A stretch of 51,577 bases of DNA from Cytophagales bacterium. Its GTDB lineage: Bacteria; Bacteroidota; Bacteroidia; Cytophagales; Spirosomataceae. Below the pieces are notes generated by a model that made no database searches, was not told where the DNA came from, and saw nothing but the letters and a program-made list of their open reading frames with translations. The stretch covers positions 1 through 51,577 of the forward strand of contig RDXN01000068.1 of NCBI GenBank assembly GCA_004292855.1, in the 5' to 3' direction. A program made the translations under genes and the position numbers. Numbering within the stretch: position 1 is the stretch's first letter; the number at the start of each line of letters is the position of its first letter. Shown piece after piece: positions 28,184-33,513 of this stretch.

Positions 28184-28636
28184 ATGAGAAATCTGACAAG
28201 AATAAACCTGCCGAAACACGTTAGTATTGAAGAGATTAGCAACTATGAGGGCAATTTCAATTTGAAATTACCTATTCAATTGATAGATTTAATAGAAAAT
28301 TACAATAGTACAAGTGTGGAGGAAGCTTTGTTTGACTCTGATGACACTTGGATTATAAACTTCTTTCTGGGCTTCGATGGGGAGCATTCGTCGATCACAA
28401 ACCTTACAGAAGAAATAAACGATAACGGCACTGTAGAGTATATTCCATTTGCGATGGACCCAGGGGGATGGCACTTTTGCTTTTGTGTTAACGAGACAGA
28501 GTATGGGGCGATTTACGTCTTTAGATGGACAGATCATTCACCTGAAAATGCCTTTTTGAAAATAGCTTCTGGCTTGAGTGAATTCATCGATAAACTTTAT
28601 AAATACAAGAGTCCTGTTGAGCGTAATACCGATTGA
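28184..28636 (+). CDS. SMI1/KNR4 (SUKH) family protein
   Basis: A 150-residue protein with the SUKH pattern: an N-terminal KLPIQLIDLIENYN helix, then YIPFAMDPGGWHFCFCVN in the centre, and a C-terminal helix IASGLSEFIDKLY. SUKH proteins serve widely as immunity proteins against polymorphic toxins. No toxin gene lies beside it, so here it may be an orphan immunity gene. Codon use is markedly AT-rich compared with its neighbours, which suggests horizontal transfer. A TATATTTG element (28172-28179) ends four bases before the ATG, so its mRNA might be leaderless. Its 3' end overlaps the truncated PIN remnant on the other strand. Confidence 0.82.
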   Translation: MRNLTRINLPKHVSIEEISNYEGNFNLKLPIQLIDLIENYNSTSVEEALFDSDDTWIINFFLGFDGEHSSITNLTEEINDNGTVEYIPFAMDPGGWHFCFCVNETEYGAIYVFRWTDHSPENAFLKIASGLSEFIDKLYKYKSPVERNTD

Positions 28637-29012: not shown

Positions 29013-30548
29013 CTAGTCCTCCCGCCCTTCTTTCCGATTCGCATCGGCCATGCGGACGATCTTGGGTGTGAATTTGGCCAGCACCTGCACTAGCTCTTTC
29101 TGAGCACCAATCACGGTCTCAATGTTTTTGTAAACCATCGGGGCCTCGTCCAAATCGCCCCCGATTAGTTGAATATCAGCCTCTTGCAAAGCCTTGTTCA
29201 TTTGCGAGCGCGTGACCGAGTTGAACGCCTGCGTGCGCGACATCTGCCGCCCAGCCCCGTGCGAGGCCGAGTTGATCGAGTCGGGGTTACCCAGGCCGCG
29301 CACCACGAAGCCCGGATGGGTCATGGAGCCGGGAATAACGCCCAACACGTCGGGACCGGCGGGCGTGGCCCCCTTGCGGTGGACGATCACCTCGCGCCCA
29401 TCGGCGAGTTGCTCCTTCCAGGCAAAGTTGTGGTGGTTCTCGACCATCACCAACGGCTTCTCCCGCAACGATTTGGCCATTTTCCGGTGAATCTCGTGGT
29501 GGTTCGCCGAGGCATACTCGCCCGCCAAATTCATCGCGATCCAGTATTCCTGCCCCTCCTCGGTGTTCAAATCGAGCCAGGCGAGGTGAGCGGCTTGTTT
29601 GGGGAGTTTGGTCCTCTGCATAGCCAGTTTCGAGTAATAACCCGCCACGGTCCCCCCAAATCCCCGCGAACCGGAGTGCGACAACAGGGCCAAATACTCG
29701 CCCGGAGGCAGGTTCAGGGCCGCGTTGCCCGGTTGGGCGGCATCTGCGTAGACCTCCACAATGCCCCATTCGACAAAGTGGTTGCCGGTGCCGGAGCTTC
29801 CCAACTGCCGATATGCCTTGTCTTTGAGGTCGCGGATGATCTTGGTGGCCCGCCATTCGGGGAGGTCCATCACGCTCTCGTCGATCTTCTCACGAGTTTC
29901 ACCCCCGATGCCGAATTTGGTGTTTTCGACCAATGATTTTTTCAATAAATGCGGCTCGCGTTTCAAGTAGTCGGGCCGCAGGTCGAAGATCGATAGGCAC
30001 ATCCGGCAGGCAATATCTACGCCCACGGCATAGGGAATCACGGTGTCGGCGGTGGTTGCCAACACGCCCCCGATGGGCAGGCCGTATCCCTGATGGGCGT
30101 CGGGCATGAGCGCACCGGCCACCGAAATGGGCAGGCTGGCAGCGGTTTCCATTTGGCGCAAGGCTCCCTCCTCAATGTACTCGCGTCCAAACACGGCGTA
30201 CGACAACGCACCCTCGCGCAACTCGAACGCCCGCTCGGTTTGGGGCGTGTTCGACCCCAGCACATACGGAGCCGGTTCGGGGGGCAGGTAAGCGGCCCCG
30301 GCCTCGCTCAGGGGTATGGCAATGCCTTGCTTGTTCATCGCGTATATAGCCTGTGCCAGGTTCGTGACCTTGTTTTTCGAGTAGGCGTACTTTTTAGGGT
30401 TCTGGAGCATCTTCGCCAGCAACCCCATCACGTTCGCCTTCGGGTACTCGGCCCGCCCGGTCAGCCCGTTGGCAACCCGCAAAAATTGGGGTTGCAGGTT
30501 TTCGGGAATAGGGCCGAGGGTAAGGATATCGTCTAGTGTGATTTCCAT
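29013..30548 (-). CDS. rtcB: RtcB-family RNA ligase
   Basis: A 511-residue protein of the RtcB family, which joins RNA ends with 2',3'-cyclic phosphate or 3'-phosphate to 5'-OH using GTP and Mn2+. Conserved elements in order: VGVDIACRM (Asp and Cys metal ligands, ~165-175), SSGTGNHFVEW (His), LLSHSGSRGFG (His), VENHHNFAW (His) and SHGAGRQMSRTQA, whose His is the guanylylated residue in studied RtcB. The start is MEITLDDI at 30548; an upstream in-frame start would overlap the slipin gene. It is the second gene of a tight operon with a slipin, behind a structured leader. Repair of cleaved tRNA or rRNA is the expected role. Confidence 0.93.
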   Translation of the reverse strand: MEITLDDILTLGPIPENLQPQFLRVANGLTGRAEYPKANVMGLLAKMLQNPKKYAYSKNKVTNLAQAIYAMNKQGIAIPLSEAGAAYLPPEPAPYVLGSNTPQTERAFELREGALSYAVFGREYIEEGALRQMETAASLPISVAGALMPDAHQGYGLPIGGVLATTADTVIPYAVGVDIACRMCLSIFDLRPDYLKREPHLLKKSLVENTKFGIGGETREKIDESVMDLPEWRATKIIRDLKDKAYRQLGSSGTGNHFVEWGIVEVYADAAQPGNAALNLPPGEYLALLSHSGSRGFGGTVAGYYSKLAMQRTKLPKQAAHLAWLDLNTEEGQEYWIAMNLAGEYASANHHEIHRKMAKSLREKPLVMVENHHNFAWKEQLADGREVIVHRKGATPAGPDVLGVIPGSMTHPGFVVRGLGNPDSINSASHGAGRQMSRTQAFNSVTRSQMNKALQEADIQLIGGDLDEAPMVYKNIETVIGAQKELVQVLAKFTPKIVRMADANRKEGRED

Positions 30549-30552
30549 AATT

Positions 30553-31665
30553 TTATCGCACAAATAATTGTTTTAATTGATCGACCATTGGGCCGTTGTT
30601 CGAGACGGAGATCGTGCTGATCTTGTCGGCGATTTTCTCGACGTATTCCATCTCTTTCAGCTTCCACAGCATGGCATTGTCTTCCATCAGCTTGGCCGTG
30701 TTCAGCAAGCTTCGGGTCGAGGCTGTCTCCTCCCGACGCATGATGCTGTTGGCCTGCGCCCGCTTCTCGGCCATCAGAACCTGGTTCATGATGTCGCGCA
30801 TGTCGCCGGGCAGGATCACGTCGCGCAGACCACCGTCGCCCAGTTCGACGCCCAACTGAGCCGCTTTGGTGGCCGTTGCATTCAAGACAAACGGAGCCAA
30901 TTCACCTTTGCGCTCCAACAATTCGTCGAGCGTGAGCGTGCCGATGTACTCGCGCAGAGCCAACTGCACGGCCACGTACAACTGCTTGTCGAAATCTTTG
31001 TTGTTAACCACGGCCTTCATCACATCGCGGACCTGGTACTGCACAAAAAAGCTCACCCGCAACGACGCCTTATCTTTGGTCAGAATCTCCTGACCCGCGA
31101 CCTCCAGTTGTTGCTGGCGCATATCGACCTTCAACACGTGAACAAGGGTGTTGTTTTTCCACCACTGATACGTGCCCGGTTGCAACACCCGATCAAACGC
31201 CCAGTCGATGAACAAAACGCCCCGCTCGTGCGCTTCCACGGCAAACGTACGCACATACGGCCCCAAGGGCGCAGGCATAAGCGACGCCAAATCAACGTCG
31301 GCGGGAATGGTCAACTGGTTCAGATCAGCCCGGACGTAGGTGTATTGTCTCACCGCATCGGCGGACCGTCCCTTCCAAAACGCATACCGACCCTTGCGCA
31401 GGATGGTCTTATACAGTCCGTTTTCGTATTGCAGGGCTATCTCATTATCCTGAACATCGACAACATCGAGTTGGGCGGCAACCTCCGGCTGATCCAGCAT
31501 CACGGCCAAATCGAGGGGCGGATTCTGTAGCTGTTCGCCCCGGTTGTAGACATAGGCTGTCTCCGTTGGCCAAACCCAGTATTTACCCTGAGTCAGCACG
31601 CGCTGGAAGCCTTCATGTTTGAACAACAGCCCAATCTGGTGGGCCTGGATGCGTACAGTTTTCAT
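30553..31665 (-). CDS. Slipin-like SPFH (band-7) protein
   Basis: A 370-residue protein with a central/C-terminal SPFH domain: RTFAVEAHERGVLFIDWAF, then QEILTKDKASLRVSFFVQYQV, AVQLALREYIGTLTLDELL and GVELGDGGLRDVILPGDM, followed by an Ala/Glu-rich helical tail. A first ~140-residue region repeats the same 'xxxGLLFxxGxFxRVLxPGxYxxW' style. Slipins usually carry an N-terminal membrane hairpin; none is visible here, so it may be soluble or peripherally bound. It ends five bases before the rtcB start, so the two are translated as a unit. SPFH proteins form ring or scaffold assemblies; a scaffold for RNA repair is inference. Confidence 0.87.
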   Translation of the reverse strand: MKTVRIQAHQIGLLFKHEGFQRVLTQGKYWVWPTETAYVYNRGEQLQNPPLDLAVMLDQPEVAAQLDVVDVQDNEIALQYENGLYKTILRKGRYAFWKGRSADAVRQYTYVRADLNQLTIPADVDLASLMPAPLGPYVRTFAVEAHERGVLFIDWAFDRVLQPGTYQWWKNNTLVHVLKVDMRQQQLEVAGQEILTKDKASLRVSFFVQYQVRDVMKAVVNNKDFDKQLYVAVQLALREYIGTLTLDELLERKGELAPFVLNATATKAAQLGVELGDGGLRDVILPGDMRDIMNQVLMAEKRAQANSIMRREETASTRSLLNTAKLMEDNAMLWKLKEMEYVEKIADKISTISVSNNGPMVDQLKQLFVR

Positions 31666-31710
31666 TAGTGTACTTGGTAAAAAGGTTAAAAATACCAGTC
31701 CTGAAGCTAC

Positions 31711-31922
31711 CCGTTCGGCCTGAACGGAGGTTAGTGCGGCTCTGGCTGCGGTTCAATGGTTGAGTTGGGTGTGGATAGGCAACCCAATTCGCCGAACGTT
31801 CGCCGGGGCGTTCCCGACCTGCTGGTCCTTGCCAAACTGCTTTCCCATTGGTCGGAACCTTCGGTGAAGCTGAGTCGCTTCGGACTGGTTAAAACGTGAA
31901 ACGGTCATTTTTAAAAGTGACC
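31711..31922 (-). other. Structured leader of the slipin-rtcB operon
   Basis: Between the tRNA-like modules and the slipin ATG (31665), several helices can be drawn: GGTCA/TGACC (31903-31907 with 31918-31922, inside the near-palindrome GGTCATTTTTAAAAGTGACC), a 9-bp stem with one bulge (31810-31819 with 31850-31858), TTGGGT/ACCCAA (31765-31770 with 31782-31787), and CCGTTC/GAACGG (31711-31716 with 31722-31727). No ORF of useful size lies here on the operon strand. The density of stems suggests a structured RNA or regulatory leader. Confidence 0.5.
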
Positions 31923-31928
31923 AGCTTT

Positions 31929-32041
31929 TTCCACCATCGGAATCAACTTTTATAGAGTTGACGTGGGAGTCGAACCCACTACATCTGTTGCTCTACCCAC
32001 TGAGCTACCTTGCTCACGCAAGAGAAGGATTCGAACCTTCG
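31929..32041 (-). ncRNA. Tandem permuted tRNA-like modules (YrlA-type Y RNA candidate)
   Basis: On the minus strand, in order: a T-arm GAAGG-TTCGAAT-CCTTC (32040-32024); a hairpin CTTGC-GTGA-GCAAG with a GNRA loop (32022-32009) plus a flanking U-G pair; TA, as at tRNA positions 8-9; a canonical D-arm GCTC-AGTGGGTA-GAGC (32005-31990); ten bases; a second T-arm GTGGG-TTCGACT-CCCAC (31979-31963); a 6-bp hairpin GTCAAC/GTTGAT (31962-31942); and a short D-arm-like TCC-GATGGT-GGA. A closed acceptor-like stem between T-arm and D-arm is the permuted arrangement described for bacterial YrlA RNAs. No anticodon arm or open acceptor is present, so these are not ordinary tRNAs. The RNA lies directly upstream of slipin-rtcB on the same strand. 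Confidence 0.62.
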
Positions 32042-32261
32042 ATCTACAGACCCAGGTGACGAAACCGCCCGATTACCAACAGCATATCGATCCAGTCAGA
32101 GACCGCGACACTACGGGGCTATGCAGAAACCCGCGTCCGGTTTAGTCATCGTTCGCTTCCGTCGATACAAAGATTTGGGGCATCTGCGCAGTGTTTTTGC
32201 GTAGTTGAGATTATTTTTGAAAATTGTGAAAGAATTTTTAGACACCGGTACGCCGGAGCGG

Positions 32262-32465
32262 GAGGGGCACGGTGACGCACCGCACCGGCGGACCGGGAGG
32301 TACACGGAGAATTTGTCATCCCGACGCAGGAGGGATCTATCTTACTAACGCTCAACTTGAATAGTAACCGAGTAGATCCCTCCTGCGTCGGGATGACAAA
32401 AAACGCTGCTGGAAAACCTCCGTGTACCTCCCGGTCCGCCGGTGCGGTGCATCACCGTGCCCCTC
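32262..32465. repeat. Palindromic repeat, family D, copy 2, with a family A copy nested inside
   Basis: Outer arms 32262-32309 and 32418-32465 (48 bases each, one mismatch seen; right arm contains CCGGTGCGGTGCATCACCGT) enclose a family A palindrome with perfect 28-bp arms (32312-32339 and 32373-32400). Related outer sequence is at 39563-39672. It lies between the tRNA-like region and the WYL gene, so it separates two divergent units. Confidence 0.85.
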
Positions 32466-32481
32466 TGTGTCCCAATAAAAA

Positions 32482-33513
32482 ATGCCAGCAAACCGAAACG
32501 CGCTCGTTCGCTATAAAACACTCGACGCCTGCCTGCGGAATCGGCAGCGCACGTGGACCCTCGACGACCTGATGGAGGCCGTCTCGGATGCGTTGTATGA
32601 ATATGAGGGTATCGACAAGGGCATCAGTCGCCGGACGGTGCAGGCCGATTTGCAGTTGATGCGCAGCGACAAATTGGGCTATTTCGCGCCCATTATCGTG
32701 GTCGACAAAAAGTACTATACATACGAAGACCCTAGCTACAGCATCACGAATATTCCCTTGTCCGACAGCGATTTATCGCGCATGAACGAGGCCGTGGAGG
32801 TGCTGAAACAGTTTCGGGGTTTCTCGCATTTTGAGGCTTTGAACGAGGTTGTGCAGAAGCTCGAAGATCACGTGTACTCGACCGCGCGGAAGTCGGTGCC
32901 GGTGATCGACTTCGAGAAAAACGACAACCTGAAAGGGCTTCACCACCTCGATCAGTTGTACCGGGCGGTGGTGCAAAAACAGGCGATGAAGATTGATTAC
33001 CAGTCGTTTTCGGCGCGGCAATCGCAGACGATGATCTTCCACGTCTGGTGGTTGAAGGAGTTCAAAAACCGCTGGTTTGCCGTGGGTGAATGCACGGGAC
33101 GCAACCACGTGTTCAACTTGGCCCTCGACCGGATGCTGGCTCTCGAACCCGCGCTCGACGTAGACTATATTGCCAACCCCGGCATCGACCCTGATACGTA
33201 TTACCGCGACGTGATTGGCGTGTCGGTGAGTTCAAACATGCGGGCCTCGCAGGTGAAGTTATTGGTCACGAGCCTGCACGCGCCCTACGTGGAGACCAAG
33301 CCCCTGCACCATTCGCAGCGCGTGTTGGAACGCACCGACGCAGGTATGGTGATTCTGCTTCGGGTGCAGCTCAATTTTGAACTTGAAAAAGAAATCCTGT
33401 CGTTTGGCGATGGCATACAGGTACTCGAACCGCCCAAACTTAGGCAGGCTATCCGGCGTCGGTTGCGGGCGGGGGCCAGAGCATACGACCCACCTCAAGA
33501 CGACACCTTTTGA
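32482..33513 (+). CDS. WYL-domain transcriptional regulator
   Basis: A 343-residue protein with an N-terminal helix-turn-helix region (LDDLMEAVSDALYEYEGIDK, then GISRRTVQADLQLMR at ~42-56) and a central WYL domain from ~150 (QLYRAVVQKQAMKIDYQSF, then HVWWLKEFKNRWFAVGEC), where WWLKEF-RWF replaces the usual W-Y-L residues. A C-terminal WCX-like region ends near LRQAIRRRLRAGARAY. WYL regulators sense nucleic-acid or nucleotide ligands and control DNA-damage or phage-defence genes in several systems. It is divergent from the tRNA-like RNA-slipin-rtcB unit, which is its likely target. The following 262-base gap holds two small hairpins (CGTTA/TAACG at 33559-33574; TTGAAC/GTTCAA at 33586-33606) and the receptor promoter region. 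Confidence 0.85.
   Translation: MPANRNALVRYKTLDACLRNRQRTWTLDDLMEAVSDALYEYEGIDKGISRRTVQADLQLMRSDKLGYFAPIIVVDKKYYTYEDPSYSITNIPLSDSDLSRMNEAVEVLKQFRGFSHFEALNEVVQKLEDHVYSTARKSVPVIDFEKNDNLKGLHHLDQLYRAVVQKQAMKIDYQSFSARQSQTMIFHVWWLKEFKNRWFAVGECTGRNHVFNLALDRMLALEPALDVDYIANPGIDPDTYYRDVIGVSVSSNMRASQVKLLVTSLHAPYVETKPLHHSQRVLERTDAGMVILLRVQLNFELEKEILSFGDGIQVLEPPKLRQAIRRRLRAGARAYDPPQDDTF

Follow-up and report, generated by a model that had tools for sequence, protein, structure and literature searches.

Background

The module of the Y RNA YrlA has been placed near the RNA ligase RtcB in RNA-repair loci (PMC8394870), and damaged tRNA is the reported signal for the regulator RtcR (PMC7790460). In Anabaena, a repressor that is lifted by translational stress is described as common to rtcB, a gene for a slipin and an operon of 26 tRNAs (PMC10272220). 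The present analysis concerns a locus with similar components on contig RDXN01000068.1 of a Cytophagales bacterium from the Spirosomataceae (assembly GCA_004292855.1), of which the whole stretch analysed, 51,577 nucleotides long, is called the window. Here, a gene for a WYL-domain regulator is divergent from an operon for RtcB and a slipin (an SPFH/Band-7 protein), and a conserved structured RNA, which includes a circularly permuted tRNA mimic, lies between them.

As in YrlA, which accompanies Ro60/Rsr, this RNA presents a permuted tRNA module in the order T-arm, acceptor hairpin, D-arm. Unlike YrlA, however, which measures 90-150 nt, it is about 470 nt long, possesses an extra module, a pseudoknot and a closing helix, stands beside a slipin gene in a genome without detectable Ro60, and reaches 38.3 of 69 bits in Rfam. 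Membership in the Y RNA family (RF02553) fails on two tested points, the Rfam score and the absence of Ro60. With the Salmonella rtcR-rsr-yrlBA-rtcBA operon the locus shares a divergent regulator, a tRNA-mimic RNA and RtcB, but it has WYL for RtcR and slipin for Ro60, and no adjoining RtcA was seen (PMC7790460). With the Anabaena TrcR regulon it shares rtcB and a slipin gene, there placed with a tRNA array under a single stress-relieved repressor; unlike in the window, that repressor is a ribbon-helix-helix protein, the genes are scattered, and the part of the report consulted mentions no tRNA-mimic RNA (PMC10272220).

Burroughs and Aravind (2016, Nucleic Acids Res 44:8525) reportedly listed, among RNA-repair systems, modules in which an SPFH/Band-7 protein is accompanied by its own novel tRNA-like RNA, so that a Band-7 protein, RtcB and a tRNA-like RNA would be shared with the window. 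A preceding reading of the same DNA (the sequence-only reading) had considered the combination of WYL, tRNA-like RNA, slipin and RtcB possibly undescribed, which that report makes doubtful. The open-licence literature yielded no paper on slipin with RtcB and a tRNA-like RNA, a weak negative, as the 2016 paper lies outside it; nor can we place in print, within that literature, the permutation of the fold, the size of the RNA, its palindrome or its varying anticodons. The conserved RNA is probably a working part of a system for handling damaged RNA that is known in outline. Somewhat better than evenly supported, in our judgement, is the more specific proposal of a stress-switched RNA-repair locus, in which damage would induce a ribonucleoprotein of tRNA-mimic RNA and soluble SPFH protein that serves RtcB.

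A permuted tRNA mimic supported by covariation

Folding of the operon strand by itself revealed no exceptional stability (z -0.81), and the evidence for the RNA is therefore comparative. Module 1 was aligned over 32 rows, 31 of them distinct and the window included, with loci whose first module escaped the T-arm pattern (e.g. L060, L062) omitted. Standard pairs occupy 98.7% of its pair cells, as against 85.2% in shuffles of the 32 loci; 13 of the 18 pairs show changes on both sides, with at least one in each of the four helices, and none of 500 shuffles reached the observed pairing or covariation. Sliding the partner by 1-3 columns reduces pairing to 43-57%, and RNAalifold, unaided, returns the identical 18 pairs. 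The elbow letters are also kept, TTC-A of the T-loop in 32/32 rows and GG of the D-loop in 31-32/32. A four-pair helix corresponding to the anticodon stem encloses the module, which thus has the form of a tRNA with a sealed acceptor and an opened anticodon.

Positions 23-89 of the Rfam YrlA model match 32048-31982 on the minus strand (E 1.1e-6 on 901 bases). This match and the covariation of module 1 bear out the sequence-only reading in its placement of permuted tRNA-like elements on the operon strand. ARAGORN found no tRNA in the window, and Rfam at gathering scores gave no match there. A normal-order main fold running from D1 to T2 was considered and rejected, as it contains no anticodon arm and leaves its flanking acceptor strands unpaired by eye, and its score in the window is 24.3 bits. 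The elements might otherwise be decaying, functionless remnants of a tRNA array, since arrays adjoin some loci and Rfam registers normal-order fragments of tRNA at several. Covariation in every module 1 helix and conservation throughout the phylum argue against this reading, which was rejected and to which we give almost no credence.

The RNA and the slipin form the steady pair

Slipins of this kind occur in 1 of 4 genomes from the window's genus and in 44 of 200 from a sample of its family. Modules were recognized by a parser that requires a T-arm plus a hairpin; applied to 2159 control windows, it reported a module in 80 (3.7%), 42 of these with a D-arm. Among the 44 family loci, the window's included, 43 possess at least one module, 36 a WYL gene, 34 RtcB within 5 kb, and 25 all three. 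A scan of named genomes returned 512 relatives, 80 of which, all Bacteroidota by title, were kept; this set and that of the 43 family loci have some species in common. Modules are properly placed in 77 of the 80 named loci (75 with a D-arm), so that the elements did not prove to be missing from related operons, an outcome which the sequence-only reading had named as one that would count against it. RtcB follows within 5 kb downstream in 59 named loci, WYL is present in 34 and TROVE, the Ro60 domain, in 4; each was sought by tblastn with one query, some loci stop at contig ends, and these counts may be too low.

Since modules persist in 18 of the 21 named loci in which no RtcB was detected within 5 kb, and WYL was found in only 34 of the 80, it is the slipin with which the RNA is most closely associated. 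RNA and slipin make up the steady pair, which RtcB and a damage-responsive regulator often accompany. The interpretation given in the sequence-only reading survives in part: a Y-RNA-like permuted module that goes together with slipin and usually RtcB, in a genome without TROVE matches, is upheld, whereas the foursome is not the closest unit.

In searches with the model R1, a match lies upstream of the slipin in 63 of the 66 named loci outside the family, none of which was used to build the model, and reaches at least 52 bits in 54 of them. At E 1e-6 the model matches in 243 of 296 genomes of the phylum and is largely unspecific, one source of cross-hits being tandem tRNAs, in which the permuted order is mimicked. 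All nine of its matches in these genomes that score at least 65 bits lie 320-680 nt 5' of a slipin gene. Among the matches listed, one stands within 700 nt of the slipin in 12 of 14 slipin genomes, the exceptions being G006 and, with a distance of 1.6 kb, G283. L075 (genome G145) retains WYL and RtcB but has lost the RNA together with the first 297 residues of the slipin, which looks like the result of a single deletion. Because the same arrangement recurs in many bacteria, the RNA is probably functional.

Further repair genes found at the loci encode RlaP, Thg1, a kinase-like AAA_33 protein and an RNA_ligase-family protein. A phage origin was considered and discarded, a scan of viral contigs having given 395 pattern matches and 0 relatives.

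Module 2 and its varying anticodons

The second module of the window has no anticodon arm, and the pseudoknot follows directly after its D-arm-like stretch. Outside the window's family, by contrast, a perfect arm (5 bp, 7 nt, U33, purine 37) follows 32 of the 58 parseable module-2 copies, a pattern met at 1.1% of random places in those loci, and 35 copies display 17 different anticodons of 12 amino acids. When 33 of these 35 copies were aligned (L105 and L165 omitted), 97.5% of cells paired and both-side changes were present in 16 of 18 pairs; as all rows were chosen for the anticodon arm, the pairing here is partly a product of selection. Either module may be absent, and single-module loci of both kinds exist.

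These arms raise the possibility that module 2 is a bait for anticodon nucleases, whereby its arm would be cut, the product would trigger the regulator, and RtcB would reseal the RNA. Also in keeping with this are the arrays of at least three ordinary tRNA genes located upstream on the same strand in 29 of the 80 named loci; Lys, Gln, Phe, Arg, Asn and His are the commonest among them, and Ala, Val or Thr are rarely included. The window, however, offers no arm for cleavage in module 2, and the very layout of its module 1 leaves the anticodon open; we consider the bait a rather improbable account. A related idea, which we hold with similarly low confidence, is that the RNA senses damage through an anticodon that can be exchanged: the intact arm of the second permuted tRNA, varying across Bacteroidota species, would be offered to tRNA-cutting enzymes of phage, rivals or the cell's own defence, a cut would unlock the WYL or RtcR operon, and RtcB would reseal and reset the sensor, with the window's family having lost the arm and kept only a scaffold role.

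Complete permuted tRNAs with anticodon arms, adjacent to an RNA ligase gene, could also be viewed as circularly permuted tRNA genes that are matured to working tRNAs with the help of RtcB. All the arms of such a gene are present in relatives chosen for their anticodon arm, and not in the window. Moreover, the acceptor stems are sealed, with 4-7 bp and short loops, no CCA is seen by eye, and module 1 joins at the anticodon, all of which makes maturation to a tRNA very unlikely.

The remainder of the RNA

Along the minus strand from 32204 to 31688, the inverted repeat and AATCTTTG come first, then a small hairpin and a conserved box, next modules 1 and 2, and last the H-type pseudoknot and a closed domain (Table 1).

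Table 1. Positions of the genes and RNA features of the locus within the window
Feature	Position	Strand	Basis and remarks
WYL-domain regulator	32482-33513	+	divergent; Pfam WYL 44.2 bits, WCX 50.3 bits
Inverted repeat (21 bp), CTACGCA-N7-TGCGCAG	32184-32204	.	likely WYL operator
AATCTTTG	32168-32175	-	resembles Bacteroidota -7 box; kept directly downstream of the inverted repeat in a 16-locus alignment
Conserved structured RNA element, ~470 nt	31688-32165	-	alignment; ends inferred
5' hairpin, AACC-loop-GGGTT	32128-32142	-	by eye, alignment
Conserved box, GCCCC(A/G)TAGT...CGATATGCTGTTGG	32076-32119	-	alignment
Module 1, circularly permuted tRNA mimic	31985-32049	-	alignment, RNAalifold, Rfam YrlA 38.3 bits
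Module 1, T-arm	32024-32040	-	module flanked by half anticodon stems
Module 1, acceptor hairpin	32008-32023	-	
Module 1, D-arm	31990-32005	-	
Module 2	31931-31979	-	T-arm 31963-31979, acceptor hairpin 31943-31961, short D-arm-like stretch 31931-31940
H-type pseudoknot	31903-31929	-	
3' domain	31694-31890	-	AACCAGTCCGAAGC (31877-31890) closes with GCTTCAGGACTGGT (31694-31707), then U run
Slipin (SPFH/Band-7), without obvious membrane segment	30553-31665	-	stop codon included; Pfam Band_7 88.4 bits
RtcB RNA ligase	29013-30548	-	PF01139 278.6 bits

The pseudoknot pattern was recovered in 29 of 43 family loci and in 22 of 430 shuffled sequences; in an earlier search without this control, the best match fell outside the expected site in 17 of 44 sequences. 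One locus (L049) contains the pseudoknot in two tandem copies, the stem letters of which are different but matching. For the 14-base closing helix, the score of a locus with its own partner (37.1) exceeds that with mismatched loci (28.9) and with shuffled sequence (27.4), and the helix outscored the best shuffle in just 2 of 43 loci.

In the window, 22 nt separate the end of the closing helix and its U run from the slipin start, and the RNA, where present, is always directly 5' of the slipin on the same strand. Both observations would be consistent with a cis-acting leader, the folds, pseudoknot and terminator-like helix of which control transcription or translation of slipin-rtcB, with the modules sensing tRNA-binding proteins or uncharged or damaged tRNA. 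Yet a D/T elbow and multiple modules exceed what a leader needs, and related modules lie away from slipin in the Emticicia loci that contain Ro60. A leader is the rival that we take most seriously, although we regard it as unlikely.

Ro60 and occurrences in other phyla

A TROVE search gave 0 matches in the window's genome, which is 96.5% complete, while its positive control matched in Deinobacterium, and Ro60 was not found in 39 of the 44 family-sample genomes that have the slipin. The reading as a true Y RNA accompanied by Ro60 was rejected on the TROVE result for the window's genome and on the sub-threshold YrlA score. That the RNA is nonetheless a bona fide Y RNA, with a Ro60 partner that was missed or that acts from elsewhere, would agree with its YrlA-like module order and with three Emticicia genomes of the family sample, in which Ro60 lies in the same locus, between the tRNA array and the slipin. 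Given the TROVE results for the window and for the family, we attach very little weight to this explanation.

Outside predicted tRNAs, the Emticicia loci have R1 matches of 44-57 bits, two each in L060 and L068, and of 54.9 and 32.5 bits in L062. The Emticicia islands (L107/L060, L143/L068, L062) comprise 12-16 tRNA genes, Ro60, slipin and RtcB, and the island of G029 additionally holds an RNA_ligase-family protein and a PcfJ-like protein.

Comparable loci exist beyond Bacteroidota. Photobacterium has RtcR (NCBIfam 772 bits, cut-off 650) in the divergent position that WYL takes in the window, opposite tRNA-like elements, slipin and RtcB; because a normal-order tRNA sits at the first element, its R1 score of 48.2 is no proof of permutation. 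In Citrobacter, a gene annotated as rtcR runs divergently to slipin and RlaP, with a T-arm followed by a hairpin between them. A record from Subdoligranulum, of the Clostridium class, contains a WYL protein, an element scoring 30.9 bits with R1, slipin, RtcB and RlaP. Strains of E. coli carry slipin and RlaP between yjbD and lysC, with a T-arm-plus-hairpin element upstream of this slipin family, and at least 80% of the stretch made up of slipin and its upstream region is present in 1621 of 5426 complete E. coli genomes. R1 gives 10.9-11.3 bits on the E. coli and Citrobacter regions (Citrobacter 11.3), which is not significant. In E. coli strain WAT (L188:6529-9415), a zeta-toxin-family gene follows the slipin-RlaP pair.

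The putative operator and the encoded proteins

The inverted repeat is likely to be the operator of WYL, to judge from its position as a palindromic site at the divergent promoter. It is a single site in the 6.25-Mb genome of the window. A strict form of the motif is present ahead of the slipin gene in 30 of 43 family loci; of the 34 named loci with WYL, 22 have it no farther than 500 nt from the WYL start. Several Chitinophagaceae loci (L101, L126, L127, L138) have CTGTGCA...TGCACAG instead, in which both halves of the repeat have changed together. In L134, one copy is found at WYL and another before the slipin RNA.

Between the inverted repeat and WYL, the window contains a hairpin-forming repeat (32230-32470), with 80 related matches on both genome strands; it sets WYL 278 nt from the likely operator, a distance of 36-41 nt in many relatives. 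In L110, L112 and L119, a plain tRNA-Tyr-like sequence lies directly between the palindrome, which is the same as elsewhere, and the slipin.

Pfam matches for all three proteins and the orientation of their genes agree with the divergent arrangement of the sequence-only reading, and the conserved inverted repeat lends support to its proposal of WYL as the regulator of the locus. The gap between the slipin stop and the RtcB ATG (30548), which it had put at five bases, is 4 bases. RtcB of the window retains the DIAC, GTGNHF, SHSGSRG, HHNF and SHGAGR motifs, which belong to its metal and guanylylation site. The SPFH domain of the slipin is related to solved stomatins (E 7e-22), and a structure model of the protein is of middling quality (mean predicted local distance difference test score, pLDDT, 78; predicted template modelling score, pTM, 0.55). 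Because no membrane-segment-like stretch was found in the window's slipin (Kyte-Doolittle maximum 0.90; 0.79-1.97 across 41 relatives), a membrane scaffold, one form that the suggested slipin scaffold could have taken, is not indicated. Just downstream of RtcB, at 28184-28636, lies a gene for a member of the SUKH (SMI1/KNR4) family, a family of immunity proteins.

A candidate damage-induced RNA-SPFH particle

Gene content, gene order, the RNA fold and the palindrome can be read from the sequence and its relatives, and from these a mechanism of induction, binding and repair may be proposed. WYL would repress from the palindrome and be released upon binding a nucleotide ligand made by RNA damage, whereupon the RNA would be produced along with slipin and RtcB. 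The slipin oligomer would bind the RNA, and the tRNA-like elbow would recruit or hold tRNA-handling factors or damaged tRNA, which RtcB could then reseal. An SPFH oligomer would thereby stand in place of the Ro60 ring, in a functional parallel to Ro60 and Y RNA. The reported activation of RtcR by damaged tRNA (PMC7790460), and the occurrence of WYL in the place of RtcR, together suggest a particle of RNA and SPFH protein that is made upon damage and aids RtcB-type repair.

Several observations weigh against this proposal. In 21 of the 80 named loci no RtcB turned up within 5 kb, and in 46 no WYL was detected, although some contigs end early, and the slipin loci L110, L112 and L119 are without a permuted module. 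The YrlA match of the window remains below the gathering score of its family, tandem ordinary tRNAs score up to 50.8 bits with R1 (a match straddling two tRNAs in L062), and the first tRNA-like element of Photobacterium is a normal-order tRNA too (Rfam 54.1 bits). Finally, the RNA could act solely in cis.

Should the proposal of a repair particle be correct, Ro60 with Y RNA would not be the sole RNA-guided partner of RtcB. There would be a second, widespread tRNA-mimic particle, built on an SPFH protein and having WYL or RtcR as its switch, and the role of permuted tRNA mimics could be studied in a laboratory organism, E. coli.

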